Made by a program: the position numbers and the translations under genes
Origin: an uncultured Lutibacter sp.
GTDB taxonomy: Bacteria; Bacteroidota; Bacteroidia; Flavobacteriales; Flavobacteriaceae
Direction of reading: 5' to 3'
Assembly: GCA_947311835.1 (NCBI GenBank)
Contig: CAMZLV010000107.1
Span: 1-34,839, forward strand
DNA length: 34,839 nucleotides
Notes under the pieces: model-generated
The model's input: the letters and a program-made list of their open reading frames with translations, nothing else
Databases searched by the model: none
What the model was told of the DNA's origin: nothing
Part shown: one piece after another, positions 1,225-12,581 of the stretch
How the letters are laid out: each line of letters opens with the position of its first letter
Position numbering within the stretch: the stretch's first letter is position 1

Positions 1225-3234
1225 TCACATCAAGTATGATAAATTTATATAAAAATTACGTCCTTGACGAGGAAAATTATTCCAATCAGCATAAGTAGAA
1301 TAATTTTTATCAAATATATTTTCAATTCCCATTTTCAAAATTATACTTGTGTCTTTAAACTCAAATCGGTTTCCTAAATTAAAATTCATAATTGAATAAG
1401 AAGGTGTCAAATCTTCGCCGTAGTTGGCACTGTAATTCGTTTGATTTCCATCTCCTTTTAATTGAAGTGAAGACGAAAACGATTTGTGCATATAATTCAA
1501 TTCAGCTAAATAAGAAAAAGGTCTTATCAAGGGTAAATTTTGATTTGAATCACCTTTTCCATAATTATATCCTATTGATGTATTTATAGCAAATGATGAA
1601 GAAATCTTGTATTCCGTATTTAAAAAAGCACTAAAAATTGATGCATTATCAAGTGCTTTATATATTCTAACGCCATTTGCACCAATTGTCATTGCAATAA
1701 GTGTAGGATCAATTTCACCAATGATATAATCTGAAATATAAAAGTAAGAAGCCTCAATTGCTACATTTAATTTTTTAAATGTACGGTTTGCATTAAAATT
1801 AAATTCTAGTGCTTTCTCATTTTTTAAATTAGGATTCCCTATATAATCGTATTTATCAAAACTATTGAACAAATAAAAACCGTAGCCTTCACTTACACTT
1901 GGCGCTCTTTCACCATATCCCAAACCAAAACTGAGCTCGTAATCGTGTTTTTTGAACGAATAGTTACTTGACAAACTTGTTAAAAATCTACTTTTAGAAT
2001 CTTGCATATCAGGATAATAAATTTGCAAACTCTGTAAGCCTACCGTATTGTCAATTCTGTTTATTTGCAATGCCAATCTCGTTGATAAACTTAGGGTTTG
2101 ATGTGGAGTAATATTAAATTCGTCTTTTAAATAAATACCAGAATTAAACGTTTTAACGTCTGGCCAAGTGTACATAAACATTGTGTTTTCTGTAGGGTCA
2201 TTAGGATACATCGTCATTTCGGCAAGTGAACGGTTATAATGCGAATTTAAATTTGCTATTAAACGATGCTTATTAAGATTAAATTTCACTTTAGAATAAA
2301 AACCATAAGTATCGCTCCATCCAGGCATATCCATACGTATTGGCACATTAGGACGTTTGGAATCATCCATAATATGTGTTATCGTATTGAAATATAATTT
2401 TGTTTCCCAAGCTTTGATTGTTGTTGAATCGTTTTTATAGTTATGTGCTAGAGATGCAATAGTTGCTTTGGCTAAAGAAACATCCATTGGTAATGCTGGA
2501 TAACCAACATCATTGGCTTGGTCATAAATTAAATCAACTTCAATACTATTGCTATCATTTATTTTATAGCCAGACTGTACTGAAATGTTATATTTTTGAA
2601 ACTGAGAATAGTTTACTTCAATATTTCCTCCTGCTGTATAGTTGTCTGATTTTCTAAAAATACCATCAGCACTTATATAAAATTTGTTAGCAGAATATTC
2701 TATATCTAAACCTGTAGATTTGTAATTTCCGTTGGTTTCATAACCCAAATCAATACTAGACTTTAATCCTGAGTCATAAAATTTCGAACTCGGTAATTTT
2801 AAATCAATTCCACCTCCAATACAGTTTGTGTTTTCTGTTCCTTCTTGTCCAGAATTTACAGTAACTTTCTCAAGGTTTGACACATCTACATATGAAGTAA
2901 TAGGATCCATCTTATCAGTACATGCTCCATAAATCTGCATTCCGTCAATAGTTACAGAAAGCCTATCGCTAGTCATATTATTAAGTGAAGGTTCCCATGC
3001 GTAATTACCACGCTTTATCATCGTTATTTTATTTGCTTTTTCAAGATACTCATCAATACTTGAAAGTGTTTTCTGCTGCCGATAATTACTTAATTTACGT
3101 CTACCTGTAAGTACTATTTCATCTAATTTTCTAATTGAATCGTTTGTTTTACGTTGATTTTTATCTTGTGAATACAAAAATCCTCCGATAAAAAAACAAC
3201 CAATAAACAATAATATGTGTTTCATCCGTTTCAT
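1225..3234 (-). CDS. TonB-dependent outer-membrane receptor, OprC/NosA-like (putative copper)
   Basis: Signal peptide, plug (LDEIVLTGRRK), C-terminal beta-barrel ending ...RQGRNFYINLSYLM; CTDKM (C105/M109) and HIM (H287/M289); adjacent to nos genes. Confidence 0.85.
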   Translation of the reverse strand: MKRMKHILLFIGCFFIGGFLYSQDKNQRKTNDSIRKLDEIVLTGRRKLSNYRQQKTLSSIDEYLEKANKITMIKRGNYAWEPSLNNMTSDRLSVTIDGMQIYGACTDKMDPITSYVDVSNLEKVTVNSGQEGTENTNCIGGGIDLKLPSSKFYDSGLKSSIDLGYETNGNYKSTGLDIEYSANKFYISADGIFRKSDNYTAGGNIEVNYSQFQKYNISVQSGYKINDSNSIEVDLIYDQANDVGYPALPMDVSLAKATIASLAHNYKNDSTTIKAWETKLYFNTITHIMDDSKRPNVPIRMDMPGWSDTYGFYSKVKFNLNKHRLIANLNSHYNRSLAEMTMYPNDPTENTMFMYTWPDVKTFNSGIYLKDEFNITPHQTLSLSTRLALQINRIDNTVGLQSLQIYYPDMQDSKSRFLTSLSSNYSFKKHDYELSFGLGYGERAPSVSEGYGFYLFNSFDKYDYIGNPNLKNEKALEFNFNANRTFKKLNVAIEASYFYISDYIIGEIDPTLIAMTIGANGVRIYKALDNASIFSAFLNTEYKISSSFAINTSIGYNYGKGDSNQNLPLIRPFSYLAELNYMHKSFSSSLQLKGDGNQTNYSANYGEDLTPSYSIMNFNLGNRFEFKDTSIILKMGIENIFDKNYSTYADWNNFPRQGRNFYINLSYLM

Positions 3235-3309
3235 TTTAAGAATAAAATAATATCCACTATGAGCCTAATCATACACATAGCGGAATATTATCAATCAACA
3301 ATTATCAAA

Positions 3310-4155
3310 TTAAAATTCTATTTCTAAATACAAACTGCTTTGTTCTACCATTCCATCAACAATATCTTCGCCTTTTAAAACTGTATTTTGAGCATCTAAA
3401 AGTTTAAGATTAAGTTTCCAATATCCTGTCATAGTAAGCGACAAATCGCCATGATACATACTATCTACCATACTATAAGTTAAATCAGTATTGTTTGGCG
3501 AACTATGATTTCCCATAGATGGCATACGAGGATCTAAAGTAATAGTGTAATTTTCTACAACAGGAAAACTCATCATATTTTCCATTTTATATAATCCTAC
3601 AACCATATCATTAATCGCTATTTTAGGGTTATTCGGTTCAATCAACGCCATGATATATTTAACAGAATCTGTTCCTGTAAAAGTAGTTACATTTTGACGT
3701 GTACTTTGCAATACCATAATAGTATCTTGAACCATATAATCAACACCATCAATAGTATACATAAATTTAAGCGACCAACCAGAAGCGTCTAGTCCTGTCA
3801 TTTGAAATACAGTATATCCATTATATAAAGTTGTTGATTCATTTACTTTGGTTAATTCTGATTTTGGACAAGAATGTGTCATTGTAGGCATTTGCATTGT
3901 TGGCATCCAATTAATAGCAATATTTTTAAGATACTTTTGAGTTGCATTATCTTTAATTCGTATACTTATATTATTATATCCTGTATAAAAATTACCTGAT
4001 TCTGTATATACCTCTATGATGTGCGTTTCATTTCTAAATTCTTGAACCTTTATTAGGTTTTCTGTTTCGTCAATTACAGGTTCGTCAGTAGGATCACATG
4101 CTGTGAAAATTGTGAATACGAATAAAATTGGTAATAAATACTTTAAGTTTTTCAT
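3310..4155 (-). CDS. Met/His-rich lipoprotein, YtkA/FixH-like domains (putative copper binding)
   Basis: Start at internal ATG (MKNLKYLLPILFVFTIFTAC, lipobox) rather than the 4212 ORF start; motifs MPTMQMPTMTHSCP and MPSMGNHSSP. Confidence 0.7.
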   Translation of the reverse strand: MKNLKYLLPILFVFTIFTACDPTDEPVIDETENLIKVQEFRNETHIIEVYTESGNFYTGYNNISIRIKDNATQKYLKNIAINWMPTMQMPTMTHSCPKSELTKVNESTTLYNGYTVFQMTGLDASGWSLKFMYTIDGVDYMVQDTIMVLQSTRQNVTTFTGTDSVKYIMALIEPNNPKIAINDMVVGLYKMENMMSFPVVENYTITLDPRMPSMGNHSSPNNTDLTYSMVDSMYHGDLSLTMTGYWKLNLKLLDAQNTVLKGEDIVDGMVEQSSLYLEIEF

Positions 4156-4384
4156 TTTGTTTGTTTTAATGTTAAATACTAGTTTATTGTTGCCTCTTAA
4201 AAAAAGTGACAAGTGATTTTGTTTAATTAAAAAGTTACTATGCTAAAGTGTGCTGTGTTTTAGTTAATAAAATACAGTCATATGTAACTGAATATAAAAA
4301 CTTGATTTTATAAACCAACACATACAATATGTTGCACGAATTAATTTAAAACAAGAAATTATATCTCAAAAAAAGGTGGAAAAA

Positions 4385-4771
4385 TTAGCTAAATAAAGGT
4401 GGAGGAAGTGCTATTTTATAATACTTATTGATAACGTTATAGTTCTTAGTATCAATGCACTTTTTAGGCTGAAATACTATAAATGTGAATAATTTATACT
4501 CATTTACTGGTTGAATATAATTGTAAACTATATTATTTTGATTGCTTTGAATTGGCATTTCAGCATTATTCATGTCTTTTTTCAGTGCCTTTACTAATTG
4601 ACACTTACCAAAACAACCTTGTTGATTATCTTTTTGCACACACAACGTTTTTGCAATCATATCTTGATTGATTGCAAAGTCTATCAAAATTGAAGTATCT
4701 TTAATAAGACTCAAAAACAATACAATCGTCAATAAAAAAGCGATTATTCTATGTGTAAACGAACTATTCAT
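4385..4771 (-). CDS. Small membrane-anchored Cys-motif protein (CxxKDxxxxCxGKC type), unknown function
   Basis: N-terminal TM, CVQKDNQQGCFGKCQLVKAL; preceded by a strong composite promoter; gene context with TonB receptor. Confidence 0.7.
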   Translation of the reverse strand: MNSSFTHRIIAFLLTIVLFLSLIKDTSILIDFAINQDMIAKTLCVQKDNQQGCFGKCQLVKALKKDMNNAEMPIQSNQNNIVYNYIQPVNEYKLFTFIVFQPKKCIDTKNYNVINKYYKIALPPPLFS

Positions 4772-4776
4772 CGTTG

Positions 4777-4819
4777 CAAAATTAATTAATCATTTAGTTT
4801 TAAATTATGACATATGTCA
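4777..4819 (-). promoter_or_regulatory. Crp/Fnr-like box + -7 element (site A)
   Basis: TGACATATGTCA (4808..4819, perfect palindrome), 23 bp, TAATTTTG (4777..4784, minus strand). Confidence 0.7.
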
Positions 4820-4835
4820 GATTTAAAAAAAAATA

Positions 4836-5618
4836 CTAAAAATCTTTCTTTTTCAATTTCATATTGATTCGTAATAATGGTATTGCAACCCAAAAACACA
4901 ATACCAACAGTGATAATATTGCTCCTAAATTTGTACCAAAAAAATCTTTAAAAACGGCTCCTGTATAACCTAACAGGGCAGAAATATCTAGTTTTAAAAG
5001 AATTAAAATTCGAGATAAATCAATTGGATTTAGCATTGTAGCAAATAATGAAAATTTATCTAAAGGATATTCATTAAACATCATCAATGAAATCATAAAA
5101 ATACCATCATAAATTACTGCCAAAAAAAGCCACATTAATATTGCAAAACCAAAACCTTTTATTTTATTTTCGTTAGACAAGGCTATGTTAAAGGCAAGTG
5201 CTACAAAAATAAAATTTAGAAATGCTCCTACTAAAATCAGCAAACTAAAATCAAATATTGCTGCAGATTTAAACAAGCCATAAACTACAAATGGAATTCC
5301 TAATCCTAATAATAAACTGAGTGTTAATGAAAGTGAAATTCCTAAATATTGACCTATAAAAATGGTGCTTCGCTTGATTGGTTGTGCTAATAGTAATTCT
5401 GTAAATTCTTTGGAGTTATAATAATACATCACTCCAAAAATAGTTCCTATTAATGGTGTTAATACGATAATGATATTCATTAAAGTTATTACTGCTTTGT
5501 TTATATCGTTGTTTAAAAACAATAATACGTAGCCTAATAATAGATAAAAAGCAAAGTAAACGTAACTCCATCTACTACGTAATAAATCAACTATTGAATA
5601 TTTTAAAATTTTAAGCAT
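4836..5618 (-). CDS. nosY: ABC transporter permease of the nos maturation system
   Basis: Six-TM ABC-2-type permease; overlaps nosF by 8 bp; nos context. Confidence 0.88.
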   Translation of the reverse strand: MLKILKYSIVDLLRSRWSYVYFAFYLLLGYVLLFLNNDINKAVITLMNIIIVLTPLIGTIFGVMYYYNSKEFTELLLAQPIKRSTIFIGQYLGISLSLTLSLLLGLGIPFVVYGLFKSAAIFDFSLLILVGAFLNFIFVALAFNIALSNENKIKGFGFAILMWLFLAVIYDGIFMISLMMFNEYPLDKFSLFATMLNPIDLSRILILLKLDISALLGYTGAVFKDFFGTNLGAILSLLVLCFWVAIPLLRINMKLKKKDF

Positions 5619-6318
5619 ATTGTTTTGAAATTAAGTTAGCAATTGCATGCTCTAAGTTATCTTGTTCGGTTTGTTTTTTTAGTGCGATAACACTTCCTTT
5701 AAAATAGATTTTACCGTCAAGTAAAAAAACAATTTCATCGGCTATTTCATCAACCAAACTCATAATATGAGTTGTAATCAAAATTGTTTTTCCTTTTTCT
5801 TTTTCTTTATTTATAAGATTTTTTAGATGTATTAAGGCTATTGGATCAAGTCCAGTTGTAGGTTCGTCAAGAATAATTAAATCACTATCAAACATAAAGG
5901 TCAATACCAAATTCACTTTTTGTTTTGTACCTCCTGACAAGTTTCCTAATTTTTTTTTCAAAAATGGAGATAAACCAAATAATTGTATCAACTCCTCTTC
6001 ATTTGATGGTTTTGGTCGTAAATTTTTCACCATCGCAATTAATTCTTTTACTGATAAATTTGCAGGAAAATTGGCTATTTGTGGCAAATAATTTATATCA
6101 TTTCTATAGTTCCATTTTTTTAAAACACTTTTATTATCTAATAAAATTTCACCTTTATTAGGTACAACCATACCTAAAATAGACTTAATTAAGGTAGTTT
6201 TACCTGAGCCATTTGGTCCTAAAATGGCAAAAATACCTCCTTGATTTATAGTTAAATCTAAACCATCTAAAACGGTTAGTTTTCCAAATTTTTTATGTAG
6301 TTTTTTAATTTCAATCAT
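5611..6318 (-). CDS. nosF: ABC transporter ATP-binding protein of the nos maturation system
   Basis: Walker A GPNGSGKTT, signature LSGGTKQKV, Walker B LIILDEP. Confidence 0.9.
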   Translation of the reverse strand: MIEIKKLHKKFGKLTVLDGLDLTINQGGIFAILGPNGSGKTTLIKSILGMVVPNKGEILLDNKSVLKKWNYRNDINYLPQIANFPANLSVKELIAMVKNLRPKPSNEEELIQLFGLSPFLKKKLGNLSGGTKQKVNLVLTFMFDSDLIILDEPTTGLDPIALIHLKNLINKEKEKGKTILITTHIMSLVDEIADEIVFLLDGKIYFKGSVIALKKQTEQDNLEHAIANLISKQYA

Positions 6319-6329
6319 ACAACTAATTA

Positions 6330-7583
6330 TTAGTCTGTTAGTGGATTAATTGGTTTCATTAATGGCTTGACATCCATCAAATCATCAGGAGTAAATACAG
6401 GTGATACTTTTTCTGAAAAATTTATAATATCAACAAATAAACTTCTAAGAAGCACTAAGGTTTCAGGTGTTTTATTTACAACATATGAAAACAGTTTTAC
6501 AGGTCTAAAAGGTACGTCTCCTATTCCGTTTTTATCAATATCATAGCCTGTATATTCACTCCAATAATTGGCTTCAAATTTATTGTCATTCAGTCGGCTA
6601 TTATATGACAAATCAAATGCATTGTGCATAAAATTATTGTATTCAAAGATATTGGTATAACAACCTCCTGTAAACTTTAAAGCCCAACCGTTGCGTATAA
6701 AATGATTGTTTTTATAATTTATTCGATTGCATCCGTCTATATTAATTCCTATTGTATTTTGTTCAAACACATTATCTACAATTTCAGCATCATAAATTTC
6801 TTTGAGCAACAATCCGTAGGATGCTGTTCCCCAATTAAAATGAAATGTATTATGATGCATATTTATATGTTTTGAAAACATCACTGCTACTCCTGCTCCA
6901 TTACCTTTAAATTCGTTATGATGGTATTCATTATAATGCGAAAACATAAAATGCAATCCGTAGCGTATGTTATTTATAGACTTGTTATCAGAAAAATGAC
7001 TATGCTCAGAATATTCAATATAAATACCATCTCGCATACCAGAAATTACGTTTTTTTCGATACGCATATTATCACATTTCCACAGATGAAAACCGTTCCC
7101 TGAAGAAGCCTCTACTTTAGCATTGCCATAAACTTTATTATTACTCAACAACCCAAAACGTGTACGTTGTAAAATAAAAGCATAAAAACAGTTATCTATA
7201 GTGTTGTTTTGAATTACAAAATTTTTACTTTTAGAAACAAAAAAAGCTGCGATTTCTTTAGTATAACTCATCCCAACATTTTTAATATTGAATCCTGAGA
7301 TAGAAAAGTTATTTGCTTTAATAGAAAAAACACTTTCTTGTTTATTTTCTGCGTCTATTGTTGGGTAATTTTCTCCAATTATATGAATACCATTTTGAAA
7401 GCTAATTTTAGTTTCTTTATACAATCCTTTTTTTACAATAATTGTATCTCCTTGTTTAGCCAACAAGGTTGCATCTTTGATGGTTTTTATTTCACAACTT
7501 GCACATACCGTTATAGTTGACGCTTGTAAATTTGAAACTATAAATAAAAAAATTACTAAAAAATAATTTAAACTTTTTTTCAT
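6330..7583 (-). CDS. nosD: Periplasmic copper-binding/maturation protein NosD (parallel beta-helix)
   Basis: Signal peptide; right-handed beta-helix repeats (NNTIDNC.., GNGAGVAVMFSKHINMHHN); upstream of nosFY. Confidence 0.92.
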   Translation of the reverse strand: MKKSLNYFLVIFLFIVSNLQASTITVCASCEIKTIKDATLLAKQGDTIIVKKGLYKETKISFQNGIHIIGENYPTIDAENKQESVFSIKANNFSISGFNIKNVGMSYTKEIAAFFVSKSKNFVIQNNTIDNCFYAFILQRTRFGLLSNNKVYGNAKVEASSGNGFHLWKCDNMRIEKNVISGMRDGIYIEYSEHSHFSDNKSINNIRYGLHFMFSHYNEYHHNEFKGNGAGVAVMFSKHINMHHNTFHFNWGTASYGLLLKEIYDAEIVDNVFEQNTIGINIDGCNRINYKNNHFIRNGWALKFTGGCYTNIFEYNNFMHNAFDLSYNSRLNDNKFEANYWSEYTGYDIDKNGIGDVPFRPVKLFSYVVNKTPETLVLLRSLFVDIINFSEKVSPVFTPDDLMDVKPLMKPINPLTD

Positions 7584-7678
7584 ATATAAAACACTATTAA
7601 AAGTATCGGCAAATATACGACATTATAGTCTTTTAATGAGTTGTCTTACTTCTTTTTTGTCATAATCAAAATACATAA

Positions 7679-7942
7679 TTTTATCATGCTATAAAATATC
7701 GGAATATCAAAAATAGCCATTCCATCTTTTGTGATAATAGCGTTTGGACAGATTATGAAAACGCCTCTAAAATGATTGCTCTTGTTAGACATTTAGGGCA
7801 ACGAATTATATGTATTCCATCAAAAAACATGGTTATTGTACGAACTGGTGATGTAACTGACAAAAAAAATAACCCAAAAAAAATTCCCGGAAAAGAAACC
7901 TATATTTGGGTTAGTGAAGCGTTAAAAATGATAGCTATTTAA
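7679..7942 (+). pseudogene. Remnant of a serine hydrolase (beta-lactamase family) C-terminus
   Basis: Plus-frame open from 7679 without a plausible start: ...VWTDYENASKMIALVRHLGQRIICIPSKNMVIVRTGDVTDKKNNPKKIPGKETYIWVSEALKMIAI*; resembles the (G)HLGQRI..IPSKNMVIVR(T/L)G C-terminal block. Confidence 0.55.
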
Positions 7943-7952
7943 CTTCAAAATA

Positions 7953-8396
7953 TTATTTTACAAACTTTGCTTTTAATTGTTTCCAAGTAAATATTTTTCC
8001 ACTATACATTGATTGTGCTTTTTTAGCCGTTTCTATTGAACTAAACGCCGATAAATTTGCTCCCATCGGACTTTTAATTTTTTCAGAAATTAAGTAAGTT
8101 GCTTTTCTTGCTGGAATTAATTCTCCTGGTTTTGTATAATCTGCAACTAAAATAAATGCGAGTTTTTCTTCATTATTTTCATTATTTATTTTTTGAACCA
8201 AACATTCAATAGCATCAAACATATATGCTTTTCCTTTTTTAGTAACATATTCTGCAGCATGTGTTTTATCAACAACTGTCATGTCACAGTGATAACAATG
8301 ATCATTACCATAGTTAATTTCTTTTGGTTCTACTTTACAAGATACAAGTAAAATTATACTCAAAAAAACAAGTATTAGCGTACGTGAATTTTTCAT
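7953..8396 (-). CDS. nosL: Nitrous oxide reductase accessory lipoprotein NosL
   Basis: Lipobox LLVSC; CYHCDMTV motif; KGKAYMFDAIECLVQ. Confidence 0.93.
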   Translation of the reverse strand: MKNSRTLILVFLSIILLVSCKVEPKEINYGNDHCYHCDMTVVDKTHAAEYVTKKGKAYMFDAIECLVQKINNENNEEKLAFILVADYTKPGELIPARKATYLISEKIKSPMGANLSAFSSIETAKKAQSMYSGKIFTWKQLKAKFVK

Positions 8397-8425
8397 TTTT
8401 AAAAATTTGTTGAATTAAATAAAAC

Positions 8426-8544
8426 AAATGAGGCTGCCGAATTAGTTATATTATCATTATGGATGGTATTGAAAAAACTCAAAGAACTAAAAACGAGTAT
8501 ACTTTTCATTGTATTCATAATGTATCTATCAGACAACCTCATTT
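8426..8544. mobile_element. Putative 119-bp MITE-like element or decayed insertion with imperfect terminal inverted repeats
   Basis: Left AAATGAGGCTG... and right ...CAACCTCATTT are inverted; internal CATTATGGATGGTATTGAAAA vs reverse complement CATTATGAATACAATGAAAA. Confidence 0.4.
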
Positions 8545-8550
8545 AAAAAA

Positions 8551-9174
8551 TTAAGATTTTGCTTCTTTTTTTCCTGTAATAAATGCCATTAATGACAATA
8601 CCATACCGACTACTATAAAATATGCTCCAAGGGCTGGAAAAGAGTAAACTTCAAAGTTTAATAGTTTCTTGTACCCTAAAAATGGCGGTTGATATCCCAT
8701 TGGTTTACCTGTTACAGGATCTGCAATTTTTAATATTGCGTTTGGATCTAAATTATGACCATAAGAGTCCAACCATGCATAAAAATCATACAAGCCTGCC
8801 ATCCCTAAAAATACCATAATTAAAAGCCAATACAAATACCATTTATGATTTCCTTTAAAACCAACAAACAAACCAAAAGCAATCATAACACCAATTACTA
8901 TTGGGAAAATAGTGAATTCTATAAAAGGTTCTATTTCTTTTTTAGCAACATTCTCTTCGGTTGGTAAATGAGCCATACCAATATAATGATTCAACAAATC
9001 TATGTTTTTAACATCGTTATATTGCACACCATCTGACAAGTGTGTAATATGAATATTTAATCCCAAAGGTTCAGGATATTGTGGTGCTACCAAGGTTATT
9101 TTCCATAAAGGTAACACATATAAAGCACCTAATAAAAGCGCTCCAATTATCATTAATATTTTTGATTTTTTCAT
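8551..9174 (-). CDS. nos-cluster-associated four-TM membrane protein of unknown function
   Basis: About 4 predicted TMs; conserved-looking loop NLDPNAILKIADPVTGKPMGYQPPFLGYKKLLNF; between nosZ and nosL. Confidence 0.8.
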   Translation of the reverse strand: MKKSKILMIIGALLLGALYVLPLWKITLVAPQYPEPLGLNIHITHLSDGVQYNDVKNIDLLNHYIGMAHLPTEENVAKKEIEPFIEFTIFPIVIGVMIAFGLFVGFKGNHKWYLYWLLIMVFLGMAGLYDFYAWLDSYGHNLDPNAILKIADPVTGKPMGYQPPFLGYKKLLNFEVYSFPALGAYFIVVGMVLSLMAFITGKKEAKS

Positions 9175-9196
9175 GATGTTTAAATTAATTTTAGTG

Positions 9197-9239
9197 TAAA
9201 ACTACAATCTTATAATTACTATTCTTATGATAAAAGTCA
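9197..9239 (-). promoter_or_regulatory. Crp/Fnr-like box + -7-like element (site B)
   Basis: TGATAAAAGTCA (9228..9239), 23 bp, TAGTTTTA (9197..9204, minus strand). Confidence 0.6.
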
Positions 9240-9272
9240 TATAAAAGATGTTTTTGTCTTTTATTATGCGAA

Positions 9273-9313
9273 AACAAAAAAAACGAGCAACTAGTCTAAC
9301 TATATGTTGCTCG
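9273..9313 (-). terminator. Rho-independent terminator downstream of nosZ
   Basis: CGAGCAAC (9284..9291)/GTTGCTCG (9306..9313) stem; A-rich left flank gives T-tract in minus-strand RNA. Confidence 0.75.
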
Positions 9314-9338
9314 CCTTCTGATTATCAACTAAATGAAC

Positions 9339-11333
9339 TTATTCTTCCTCGCCTGGAATATCACCATCTAAAGTAAATGAGATAGGGATATTAGACCCTT
9401 TAGGAGAAACACGAACATAACCTTGCATTTCTTGGTGCAATGCCGAGCAGAAATCTGTACAATAAAATGGCCAAACTCCTACTTCTTTAGGCTCCCAAAC
9501 AAATGTTGAAGTTCTTCCAGGCATAATTAACAACTCTGATGTGTTAGCACCAATCATTGAAATACCGTGAGGAACATCATAATCTTGTTCTAAATTTGTA
9601 ACATGGAAAAATACTTTATCACCAACTTTTACACCTTCAATATTATCAGGAGAAAAATGAGAACGAATCATAGTCATATAGATATGAACTTCATTTCCTT
9701 TTCTAACTACTTTTGTTTCTGCCTCGCTCTTAACACCATAAGGATGCTTATTCTCATCTAATTTGTATATTTTTCTTGATTTTGGTGCTATTTTATCAGC
9801 AGCAATTCCGGCAGCATAATGAGGTTCTCCAATAGTAGGGAAATCTAATAGCAATTCCATTTTTTCACCTGAAATATCAAATAATTGAGCAGATTGGCAT
9901 ACTTCAGGACCTGTAGGTAAATAACGGTCTTTTGTAATCTTGTTCATTGATATTAAGTATTTATCATCTGGTGTTCTAGAGTTTCCTCCAGGAATCATTA
10001 AGTGACCAACTGAATAATATACAGGATGTCTATCTAACACTTTTAAATCTTTAACATTCCATTTTACAACTTCAGAAGAGATAAAGAATGTAGTATATGC
10101 ATTTCCTCTTGTATCAAACTCAGTGTGTAAAGGTCCTAATCCAGGTTGATCTAGCACTCCAAAGTTAATTGCTTCAAACTTCATAATAGGAATTCCGTAT
10201 TTTTCTCCATCAAAAGCTTTATCAGCTATTGCTTTTTGGAATTTTGTAAATGAATGCACTGTCATAGCAGCTGCTAATTTACCATTACCAATAATATACT
10301 CTCCTGTTGGATCTACGTCACAACCATGAGGTGATTTTGCTGTTGGTAAGAAATAAATTGCTCCTGGAACATCTTTTGGTTCAACAACCAACACTTCTTT
10401 TTCCATTGTTGAAGTTGCTGAATGCGTATCATCACTCCAAGTATTATGTGCATATTTTGCAGGCATTTTTTTACCTCCACCGTTTTTTACATATTCTTCA
10501 ATTTTTTTCCAATTAATTGCTGCAATAAAATCTTTATCATTTTGCGATGCATTAACCTCTAACAATGAGTTTGCTTCTTCTGTATTATAGGTTGAGAAAA
10601 AGAACCAACCATGAGATTTTCCACGTCCTGGATGCGATAAATCATAGTTAAATCCAGGCATTTTTATTTGAAAAGCAATATTCATACGTCCCGTTTCCTT
10701 ATCAATTTTTAAGAATGACAATGCACCTTTAAAATTACCTTTCATATCTTTAATAGACATGTCTCTTTGAGGAAATGGTACTGCAAAACGAGTTCCTGCT
10801 ACTACATATTCTGAGTTTTCAGTAACATACGAAGAAGAGTGATTTCCTGCTGAGTTAGGAATTTCTATAATTTCTTCTGTTTCAAATGTTTCTAAAGAAA
10901 TACGTGCAATACGAGGCGTATTGTTTTCGTTGATAAATACCCAACGACCATCTACTGAACCATTGGTTTGAGAAATATCTGGATGATGTGAATCTCCCCA
11001 AGGCACAAAACCATGAGAGGTTTCTAACATTGGTTTGGTTTCTTCATTGTATCCATATCCTTTTTCTGGGTCTTGAGAAAATACAGGTATCACTCTAAAC
11101 AATCTACCAGAAGGTAATCCGTAAACTGACAATTGACCTGAAAAACCTCCAGATATAAATGCATAATGAGAATCATGTTCTCCTGGAGCAACATATACTC
11201 TTTCTGCAGCGCTTCCTGCTATTGCTCCTTTTGCGTTTCCTCTAGTTTCTTTACTTGCGGTTGTTGGCGCACAACTTACAAAAAAAGTTGCCGTAATAAC
11301 TAAAGAAAAAATTGATTTAATAATTGTTTTCAT
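9339..11333 (-). CDS. nosZ: Nitrous oxide reductase, Sec/lipoprotein-type (clade II-like)
   Basis: WGDSHHPD, CDVDPTGEY, CuA motif CTDFCSALHQEM; non-twin-arginine signal peptide with lipobox FVSC. Confidence 0.96.
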   Translation of the reverse strand: MKTIIKSIFSLVITATFFVSCAPTTASKETRGNAKGAIAGSAAERVYVAPGEHDSHYAFISGGFSGQLSVYGLPSGRLFRVIPVFSQDPEKGYGYNEETKPMLETSHGFVPWGDSHHPDISQTNGSVDGRWVFINENNTPRIARISLETFETEEIIEIPNSAGNHSSSYVTENSEYVVAGTRFAVPFPQRDMSIKDMKGNFKGALSFLKIDKETGRMNIAFQIKMPGFNYDLSHPGRGKSHGWFFFSTYNTEEANSLLEVNASQNDKDFIAAINWKKIEEYVKNGGGKKMPAKYAHNTWSDDTHSATSTMEKEVLVVEPKDVPGAIYFLPTAKSPHGCDVDPTGEYIIGNGKLAAAMTVHSFTKFQKAIADKAFDGEKYGIPIMKFEAINFGVLDQPGLGPLHTEFDTRGNAYTTFFISSEVVKWNVKDLKVLDRHPVYYSVGHLMIPGGNSRTPDDKYLISMNKITKDRYLPTGPEVCQSAQLFDISGEKMELLLDFPTIGEPHYAAGIAADKIAPKSRKIYKLDENKHPYGVKSEAETKVVRKGNEVHIYMTMIRSHFSPDNIEGVKVGDKVFFHVTNLEQDYDVPHGISMIGANTSELLIMPGRTSTFVWEPKEVGVWPFYCTDFCSALHQEMQGYVRVSPKGSNIPISFTLDGDIPGEEE

Positions 11334-11356
11334 TTAATTTGATATTTAATAATTGA

Positions 11357-11860
11357 TTAGTTTTTTGTTCTAAAATATTCTAAGATAGCTCTTGCTTGAT
11401 CTTCTTTTAAACTTTGATTTGCCATTGGCGCATGATATTCTGCAATCAATGCTTTCGCAACAGGATCTTCAGCAACCATTTTTTCTGGATTCATAATCAT
11501 ATTCATAATCCATTCAGGAGAACGTCTTTGAGTTACACCTTTTAATGCAGGTCCTACAAAACGCTTTTTAAATTTATGACAAGCTGTACAATTGGCTTTA
11601 AATAAATCTTTTCCTTTTGCTACCAATTTATCATCAATCTTAGCATCAATTTTAACTGATTTTACATCTCCTACTCCCTTGTTATCAAGTGTTGGAGCCA
11701 ATAAATCTATCTTAGATGATTTTTCTGCTTTTTTGGGAGTTTCTTTTACTTCTTTTTTTGTTGGAAGTTTTATTCCTTTTTTCTCCTCTTTTTTTCCATC
11801 ACCGCAACTTGAAAAAGTGATTGTTAAAATTGCTAATAATGCTACTAGTTTAATTTTCAT
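11357..11860 (-). CDS. Class I cytochrome c lipoprotein (putative NosZ electron donor)
   Basis: Lipobox FSSC, heme motif CTACH, candidate Met ligand HAPMANQ; adjacent to nosZ. Confidence 0.88.
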   Translation of the reverse strand: MKIKLVALLAILTITFSSCGDGKKEEKKGIKLPTKKEVKETPKKAEKSSKIDLLAPTLDNKGVGDVKSVKIDAKIDDKLVAKGKDLFKANCTACHKFKKRFVGPALKGVTQRRSPEWIMNMIMNPEKMVAEDPVAKALIAEYHAPMANQSLKEDQARAILEYFRTKN

Positions 11861-11906
11861 TTTAATTAGTTTTAAGTTTAATATTTAGTTTAGTTATAAT
11901 TAATTT

Positions 11907-12512
11907 TTACTTATCTGATGGTACTAGTACATCTCCTACTACGTGTATCCATCCATTACTTACTTTTACAGACATTAAGACTTCTGTTCCGCCAACAAAT
12001 ATTTTACCGTCTTTATTTTCAACAGTTAAATATTTTCCGGAAGCCATATATAATTTACGTCCTTTTTTTACATCCTTTTTTAATTGCTTAATTGGATAGT
12101 TTGCTGGTGCAACGTGATTTTTTAATATAAAACCTAACTTGGTTTTGTTTTCAGGTTTTAACAATGTCTCCACAGTTCCTGCTGGTAATTTTTCAAATGC
12201 ACTATTTACAGGTGCAAATACTGTCAATGGTCCTGCGTTTACTAATGCATCTTCAACTCCTGCAGCTTGTACCGCAGCAACCAACGTAGAAAATGGTTTA
12301 TTACCTTCTTTGTCTTTGTAGGTCATTGCAACCTGAAGTACGTTTGCATCTTCTCCTTCTGATAATTTTACTGCTGCTTGTCCTTTATGTTCTTTTGGTG
12401 CAGTTTGTTTTGAGTGTGATTCAGTTGTGTTTGTTGTTTTCTTTTCTGTGTCATTTTTACAAGAAATAAACACAGTAAATAATAGTGTTAATAGTAAATA
12501 CTTAAGTTTCAT
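11907..12512 (-). CDS. Fasciclin-domain lipoprotein
   Basis: Lipobox FISC; FAS1 signatures GPLTVFAPVNSAFEKLP and NGWIHVVGDVLVPSD. Confidence 0.9.
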   Translation of the reverse strand: MKLKYLLLTLLFTVFISCKNDTEKKTTNTTESHSKQTAPKEHKGQAAVKLSEGEDANVLQVAMTYKDKEGNKPFSTLVAAVQAAGVEDALVNAGPLTVFAPVNSAFEKLPAGTVETLLKPENKTKLGFILKNHVAPANYPIKQLKKDVKKGRKLYMASGKYLTVENKDGKIFVGGTEVLMSVKVSNGWIHVVGDVLVPSDK

Positions 12513-12538: not shown

Positions 12539-12581
12539 CAAATTTAATTTTATTTGCAATGCAAATATATGATATTTATCA
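12539..12581 (-). promoter_or_regulatory. Crp/Fnr-like box + -7 element (site C)
   Basis: TGATATTTATCA (12570..12581), 23 bp, TAAATTTG (12539..12546, minus strand). Confidence 0.7.

Follow-up and report, generated by a model that had tools for sequence, protein, structure and literature searches.

Organization of the Locus

We analyzed contig CAMZLV010000107.1 of an uncultured Lutibacter sp., referred to here as the window; it is the entire 34.8-kb contig (34,839 nucleotides [nt]) from a genome of Flavobacteriaceae type, 2.29 Mb in size and 84% complete. On its minus strand, the nitrous oxide (N2O) reductase genes nosZ, a gene for a transmembrane protein, nosL, nosD, nosF, and nosY are followed in the same direction by a triad of genes encoding a small leader-like protein with a Cys motif (CysP), a lipoprotein (LipoY), and a TonB-dependent receptor (Table 1). 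The NosZ protein of the window scored 925 bits against TIGR04246. An earlier note, made from the sequence, had proposed that the triad acquires copper for NosZ, and every feature and motif that it described was located in place on the minus strand. For LipoY, the start was taken as ATG 4155; the mechanical list of open reading frames (ORFs) has a longer form from TTG 4212.

Table 1. Coordinates of the triad, the nos operon, and their control elements in the window
Feature	Position	Strand	Remarks
nos operon: fasciclin lipoprotein, cytochrome c, NosZ (clade II), transmembrane protein, NosL, NosD, NosF, NosY	4836..12512	-	
CysP, 128-residue leader-like protein, CVQKDNQQGCFGKC	4385..4771	-	N-terminal membrane/export helix, C44, C53xGKC57, terminal PPPLFS
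CxGKC motif of CysP, codons 53-57, candidate copper site	4601..4615	-	CxGxC in 211/211 distinct members
Terminal PPP of CysP, codons 123-125, candidate ribosome-arrest motif	4397..4405	-	
CysP-LipoY gap, 229 nt	4156..4384	-	Median 104-106 nt in relatives
LipoY lipoprotein, 281 residues, lipobox Cys20, Met/His/Cys cluster at residues 84-96	3310..4155	-	
OprC/NosA-type TonB-dependent receptor, 669 residues, predicted copper transporter	1225..3234	-	C105xxxM109, H287xM289; track M250, M301, M303
Site A, perfect Crp/Fnr-type palindrome TGACATATGTCA	4808..4819		48 nt 5′ of CysP ATG
Bacteroidota -7 promoter box TAATTTTG (TAnnTTTG)	4777..4784	-	13 nt 5′ of CysP ATG
Matching palindrome TGATATTTATCA	12570..12581		5′ of first nos-operon gene (fasciclin lipoprotein)

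Our analyses bear out a role in copper acquisition: the receptor carries an invariant OprC-type ligand quartet, LipoY is a tandem YtkA/CrdA-like lipoprotein, and the neighbors of such triads include NosZ, MbnP/MbnH, and in some cases NirK and SCO. We consider it probable (roughly 0.62) that the triad is a copper-uptake operon gated by anoxia and copper, often but not only serving NosZ, with CysP as its copper-sensing leader. N2O may have an important biological sink in flavobacteria that carry clade II NosZ, an enzyme that copper supply can limit; the analysis yields a conserved copper-supply operon with residue-level predictions.

Conservation of the Triad and Its Association with nosZ

The gene order of the window recurs in Flavobacteriaceae. 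Our analysis covered 251 genomes of the family as a fixed sample, from which 50 of the 51 LipoY/receptor loci were fetched, and, in addition, 80 loci of named genomes; kinship among the sampled genomes inflates all counts. LipoY was present in 51 of the 251 genomes and the receptor in the identical 51, always adjacent to LipoY. A profile search found CysP in all 50 fetched loci and in 79 of the 80 named-genome loci, the one exception being a cut contig. In a close group, with receptors 62 to 68% identical, the order is CysP–LipoY–receptor, directly behind nosY in 16 of 20 cases. A middle group mostly has CysP–receptor–LipoY, which in several genomes lies 5′ of the nos cytochrome c and NosZ genes. 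In a distant group (receptor 41 to 44%; L141 to L150), genes for MbnP and for a di-heme protein of the MbnH type come after CysP–LipoY–receptor in 10 of 10 cases; no methanobactin operon was seen around this pair of copper proteins.

The coupling to NosZ claimed by the earlier note proved strong but not exclusive. NosZ scored above cut-off in 117 of the 251 family genomes; nosZ occurs in 42 of the 51 receptor genomes and in 75 of the remaining 200 (Fisher p = 1e-8, without correction for phylogeny). It adjoins the triad at 25 of the 51 loci of the family sample and lies at most 10 kb from the triad in 65 of the 80 named-genome loci. Exclusivity fails with the distant clade and its MbnP/MbnH genes. 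One genome (G226; L151, L152) has the nos cluster most similar to that of the window (NosZ 89%) but no triad there; its nearest CysP (48%) is encoded on a separate contig, at the head of a different OprC-type receptor.

A Crp/Fnr-Type Operator Common to the CysP and nos Promoters

Matching palindromes precede CysP and the first gene of the nos operon (Table 1). A palindrome scan of the window alone gave two matches with at most two mismatches against 2.06 expected, which is not above chance. Of 98 upstream regions in relatives, 70 carried TGAN6TCA, far more than the 4.7 expected by chance. The form TGAYN4RTCA was found 5′ of CysP in 102 of 210 cases, at exactly −47 in 51 and −48 in 12, compared to 52 of 1,520 background genes, and 5′ of the nos cytochrome c gene, which is usually first in its operon, in 70 of 78 relatives, mostly at −62 to −67. 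It preceded LipoY in 0 of 116 cases and the receptor in 2 of 160. The TAnnTTTG box was present at −12 in 41 of 98 relatives versus 30 of 1,520 background genes at that position; the transcript would therefore start at or beside the CysP ATG, giving a near-leaderless mRNA, and such a start would put the palindrome center near −41.5, a class II activator position. Sigma-70–type promoter matches around the locus were at chance level and were set aside for the Bacteroidota box. The operator common to both promoters supports co-regulation of the CysP operon and nos, as the earlier note had proposed, by a Crp/Fnr-type protein, whose identity and response to anoxia are predicted.

A possible though less probable explanation is that the triad takes up copper for cuproenzymes in general, heme-copper oxidases included, its nos link reflecting no more than shared anaerobic control and gene order. 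This would accommodate the 26 of 51 triad loci with no nosZ nearby, the clade with MbnP/MbnH, and the cbb3 assembly genes that converge on the triad. It would also fit a few triads (L104, L105, L111) that adjoin SCO and a cytochrome-fused copper nitrite reductase (NirK), and two (L103, L116) that are kept beside the nos cytochrome c gene without nosZ. The enrichment of nosZ in receptor genomes argues against it, as does the operator that this leader shares with nos: TGAN6TCA is rare before MbnP-type leader operons (5/23) and absent before those encoding outer-membrane proteins (OMPs; 0/18).

CysP Resembles the Leaders of Known Copper Operons

No Pfam or NCBIfam family covers CysP (no Pfam match in 32 members), yet the protein is found phylum-wide, in 96 of 248 Bacteroidota genomes; DUF2946, the family of the Bordetella copper leader CruR, occurs in 5 of 198, marginally. 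CysP has three invariant cysteines and an export helix, the export signal being judged from sequence and model alone. A downstream PP is present in 210 of 211 distinct members and lies within the last 7 residues in 200 of 211, compared to 2.4% of other ORFs. CxGxC and PP are separated by 68.2 ± 1.9 residues over all members (range 63 to 73) and by 69.0 ± 0.8 within the close group; in that group, pair identity is only 0.22 in linker columns versus 0.71 in the Cys motif. The AlphaFold model has low confidence past the helix and served only as a sign of disorder. A linker of ∼69 residues is about the length needed to span the ribosome tunnel and the translocon, which would favor periplasmic sensing. 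HYC_CC_PP (NF047658) was rejected as the family of CysP, since CysP members do not match it. HYC_CC_PP proteins (e.g., L357, G000:C115:21101-21499) likewise have an N-terminal helix, Cys clusters, and a PP near the C terminus, and may be another metal-sensing leader family.

The gene after CysP is co-oriented in 210 of 210 cases. It encodes LipoY in 98, a count inflated by the choice of loci, a TonB receptor in 61, MbnP in 23, a Met/His-rich OMP in 18, a second CysP in 2, and other proteins in 8, including small Met/His-rich lipoproteins and, once, CydA. Across 82 independent non-triad loci, the next gene encodes a receptor in 39, MbnP in 22, and an OMP in 15, and 21 loci from the phylum-wide search and a plasmid have like gene types behind CysP. 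The plasmid, from Hymenobacter, was traced via its receptor and carries CysP–receptor–PepSY_TM, the order of the Bordetella cruR–crtA operon; a CysP search in plasmids had given nothing significant, although this one carries a copy.

CruR of Bordetella pertussis has an export signal and a CxxC and a RAPP motif ∼45 residues apart, and heads copper-receptor operons (PMC9426467), which it controls by copper-dependent relief of ribosome arrest (PMC9426467; arrest shown in PMC12992588). CysP similarly combines an export signal with a Cys motif at a set distance from a C-terminal proline motif, in its case a candidate arrest motif, and holds a similar place to CruR/DUF2946, which heads TonB-dependent transporter (TBDT), PepSY_TM, and MbnPH operons (PMC9426467). 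Indeed, DUF2946 directly precedes copper receptors in Proteobacteria and plasmids, the position held by CysP in Bacteroidota. The motifs themselves differ: CxxC and RAPP with a spacing of 44 to 47 in DUF2946 controls, versus CxGKC and [HKR]PP/TPPP with 63 to 73 in CysP. In a recent survey that relied on RAPP motifs, copper-related arrest-peptide leaders were reported to be missing from Bacteroidota (PMC12992588).

The second precedent is CutF of Rhodobacter capsulatus, which has a CxxxC and a C-terminal proline motif and is exported cotranslationally, with periplasmic copper sensing proposed; the survey of CutF-like proteins counts many in Bacteroidota (PMC9973294). Like CutF, CysP is a small exported protein with CxxxC and a C-terminal PP and is the leading gene of a copper operon; it has the CutF-like anatomy of fewer than 150 residues, CxxxC, PP at most 15 residues from the C terminus, and a co-oriented next gene. 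Unlike CysP, CutF heads a multicopper-oxidase operon. CutF works together with a stem-loop in the mRNA that covers the ribosome-binding site of the following gene, whereas the CysP–LipoY gap, taken as a whole, folded no more strongly than control gaps, and a search of this gap for an intrinsic terminator found none. By analogy, the balance leans modestly toward CysP working like CutF and CruR, without placement in DUF2946.

This likeness bears on the outer-membrane-to-periplasm relay that the earlier note had drawn, here read as three steps of which CysP would be one, as a working periplasmic or membrane copper chaperone or reductase. The invariant cysteines, the export helix, and the constant presence of copper-type genes beside CysP would suit such a protein. 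However, mature CysP is poorly conserved and modeled as unfolded, except for the Cys motif and terminal PP; its linker keeps a constant length while the sequence drifts, it is always the first gene, and PP stands almost at its C terminus in 95% of members. We therefore regard a relay role as unlikely and find the three-step scheme unsupported, given the CutF/CruR-type look of CysP and the surface-export-like N terminus of LipoY.

The Receptor and Its Lipoprotein Partner

The receptor is of the OprC/NosA type, and its residues point to copper transport. OprC structures were its sole relatives in the PDB (E = 6.5e-22). Residues C143, M147, H323, and M325, which bind copper in OprC (PMC8610252), correspond to C105, M109, H287, and M289 of the receptor, and the OprC methionine-track residues M286, M339, and M341 to M250, M301, and M303; both sets are invariant in 50 of 50 sequences. 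OprC M343 had no counterpart in the receptor in the alignment to OprC. Within its own genome, the receptor was the best match to the TonB-copper model TIGR01778, with 151 bits; that this is under the 472-bit equivalog cut-off is expected because the receptor is a distant family member. Like OprC and NosA of Pseudomonas, it has the CxxxM–HxM main copper site, three methionine-track residues, and, by homology, the fold; NosA is linked to denitrification (PMC8610252). It differs in its distant sequence, the sub-cut-off score, a YtkA-type lipoprotein as partner, and a different leader. The OprC-like assignment is not new: the TBDT of the corresponding locus in Bizionia argentinensis was earlier predicted to be OprC-like (PMC11213822).

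LipoY is built of two YtkA/CrdA-like halves with Met/His motifs that we predict to bind copper. The YtkA profile (PF13115) was matched by 36 of 37 members (best E = 4.8e-12), the window's own LipoY falling below threshold (18.7 versus 25.9 bits). Its AlphaFold model is confident (predicted local distance difference test score of 91), and Foldseek gave Helicobacter pylori CrdA (9ll2_A) as the only plausible domain-level match (template modeling [TM] score 0.76 of CrdA, 3.0 Å); CrdA was also the only meaningful PDB profile match (E = 0.002). The top-ranked Foldseek matches, antibody folds, were rejected as global mismatches (TM score ∼0.2). The halves carry like motifs, MPTMTHSCP with M119 and MPSMGNHSSPN with M242. 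M211, M214, H217, and M242 are invariant in 51 sequences, and the second set, M87/M89/H94/C96/M119, is present in ∼80% of members.

Most LipoY members have CSSDDD or a similar sequence from the lipid Cys onward, and 98 of 115 carry two or more acidic residues between +2 and +6, versus 1 of 45 NosL and 2 of 62 NosZ proteins; the signal is weaker in the window's LipoY (CDPTDEP). Because this N terminus resembles the Bacteroidota surface-export signal of lipoproteins (PMC5080379), LipoY probably sits on the outer membrane, facing out next to the receptor. It shares its Met/His-rich YtkA-like domain with YtkA/CtaK of Bacillus, in which CtaK supports CuA assembly (PMC13344008), and with the YtkA-type copper-resistance protein CrdA, and is unlike them in having two such halves, a surface-export-like signal, and a TonB-receptor partner. 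The strict pairing of a TonB receptor with an outer-membrane lipoprotein recalls SusC–SusD, although LipoY is of the metal-binding YtkA type, not SusD; a lid-like LipoY–receptor complex is only a suggestion.

Two other cargoes were weighed. Import of a copper chelate (chalkophore), as by MbnT or CrtA, with LipoY as the chelate-binding partner, seems rather improbable: the distant clade has MbnP/MbnH, partners of methanobactin operons (PMC3621798), and CrtA imports chelated copper (PMC12914433), but no methanobactin-type genes were seen beside triads, and the receptor of the triad keeps the OprC ion quartet and the methionine track without exception, in contrast to other receptors encoded behind CysP (the full quartet is present in 23 of 45 non-triad receptors). 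A receptor for another nutrient (iron, heme, or cobalamin) with incidental copper residues is very improbable, and an iron or heme role was dropped: a heme-receptor model is the second-best NCBIfam match and the TonB-copper score is low, but the copper ligands stay invariant in receptors down to ∼41% identity, OprC is the sole PDB match, the neighbors are copper enzymes or maturation genes, and among the loci examined no triad was seen at an iron or cobalamin locus, where the earlier note would have expected most of them had copper been wrong.

A Proposed Mechanism for Gated Copper Uptake

In the copper-uptake operon that we favor, a Crp/Fnr-family regulator bound at the palindrome (∼−41.5) would turn on a near-leaderless transcript, as for the nos operon. 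CysP would then act as an exported nascent-chain copper sensor, with CxGKC 66 to 69 residues before the terminal PP/PPP. With the ribosome on these prolines, the Cys motif would have only just emerged from the ribosome and the Sec channel, in a position to sense copper in the periplasm. Stalling or release would then depend on the copper state, and so would the expression of LipoY and the receptor, which would most likely be repressed at plentiful copper, as with CruR. LipoY would bind Cu(I) and hand it to the OprC-type receptor for TonB-driven import through the methionine track and the CxxxM–HxM site. From the periplasm, copper could then be supplied to NosL/NosDFY and NosZ and also to further cuproenzymes, among them the cbb3 oxidase.

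Several points weigh against this model. Deletion of NosA in one P. stutzeri strain gave no NosZ defect (PMC8610252), about half of the triads stand apart from nosZ, and kinship enlarges the counts cited. CysP was rejected as a DUF2946 (PF11162) member, with an hhalign probability of 0.6% and no RAPP. Its constant linker length could reflect a folded domain, though the linker is unfolded in the model. Also rejected, on the folding of whole gaps, was a structured attenuator between CysP and LipoY: the mean folding z was −2.66 versus −3.43 for control gaps.

More tentatively, at slightly under even odds, CysP would found a family of copper-sensing arrest peptides that spans the Bacteroidota, marked by a variant stall motif, [HKR]PP/[DE]TPPP, and a ∼69-residue linker as a measuring rod. 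If so, the linker would put CxGKC at the periplasmic mouth of Sec during the stall. In nos-linked loci, CysP together with the Crp/Fnr-type promoter and leaderless mRNA would confine copper import to conditions of both low oxygen and scarce copper, so that N2O reduction would be gated by two inputs. The small proteins of this phylum-wide family, uncurated in Pfam and NCBIfam, are likely nascent-chain copper sensors.

Additional Features of the Window and Related Loci

Convergent with the triad, positions 70 to 1143 encode FixH and a DsbD_2/SafE-type membrane protein; in relatives, these genes are the end of the operon for cbb3 oxidase (COX1 ∼727 residues), another copper user. The 207-residue transmembrane protein between NosZ and NosL (8551 to 9174) occupies a NosB-like position (cf. 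PMC9697520), is present in the flavobacterial nos clusters examined (46 to 53% identity), and belongs to no curated family; an extra TGAYN4RTCA site lies 5′ of its gene, at 9228. The fasciclin-domain lipoprotein (11907 to 12512) is a conserved neighbor of the nos cytochrome c in the majority of flavobacterial nos operons. Three contigs (G129:C10, G210:C68, and G236:C7) have tandem pairs of long NosZ-like ORFs, of ∼670 to 820 residues and with scores of 660 and 390 to 400 bits to TIGR04246, unlike ordinary NosZ.

In further loci (L154, L158, L159, and others), CysP heads operons for a Phenol_MetA-type, His/Met-rich outer-membrane protein (HTHHKGEFMFSYRYMTMDM). These also encode a small HDEVMPKM lipoprotein, followed in L158 by cydAB, and in L280 cydA comes directly after CysP. 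The cydAB and cydA loci suggest that a copper-independent oxidase is under the control of a CysP sensor.

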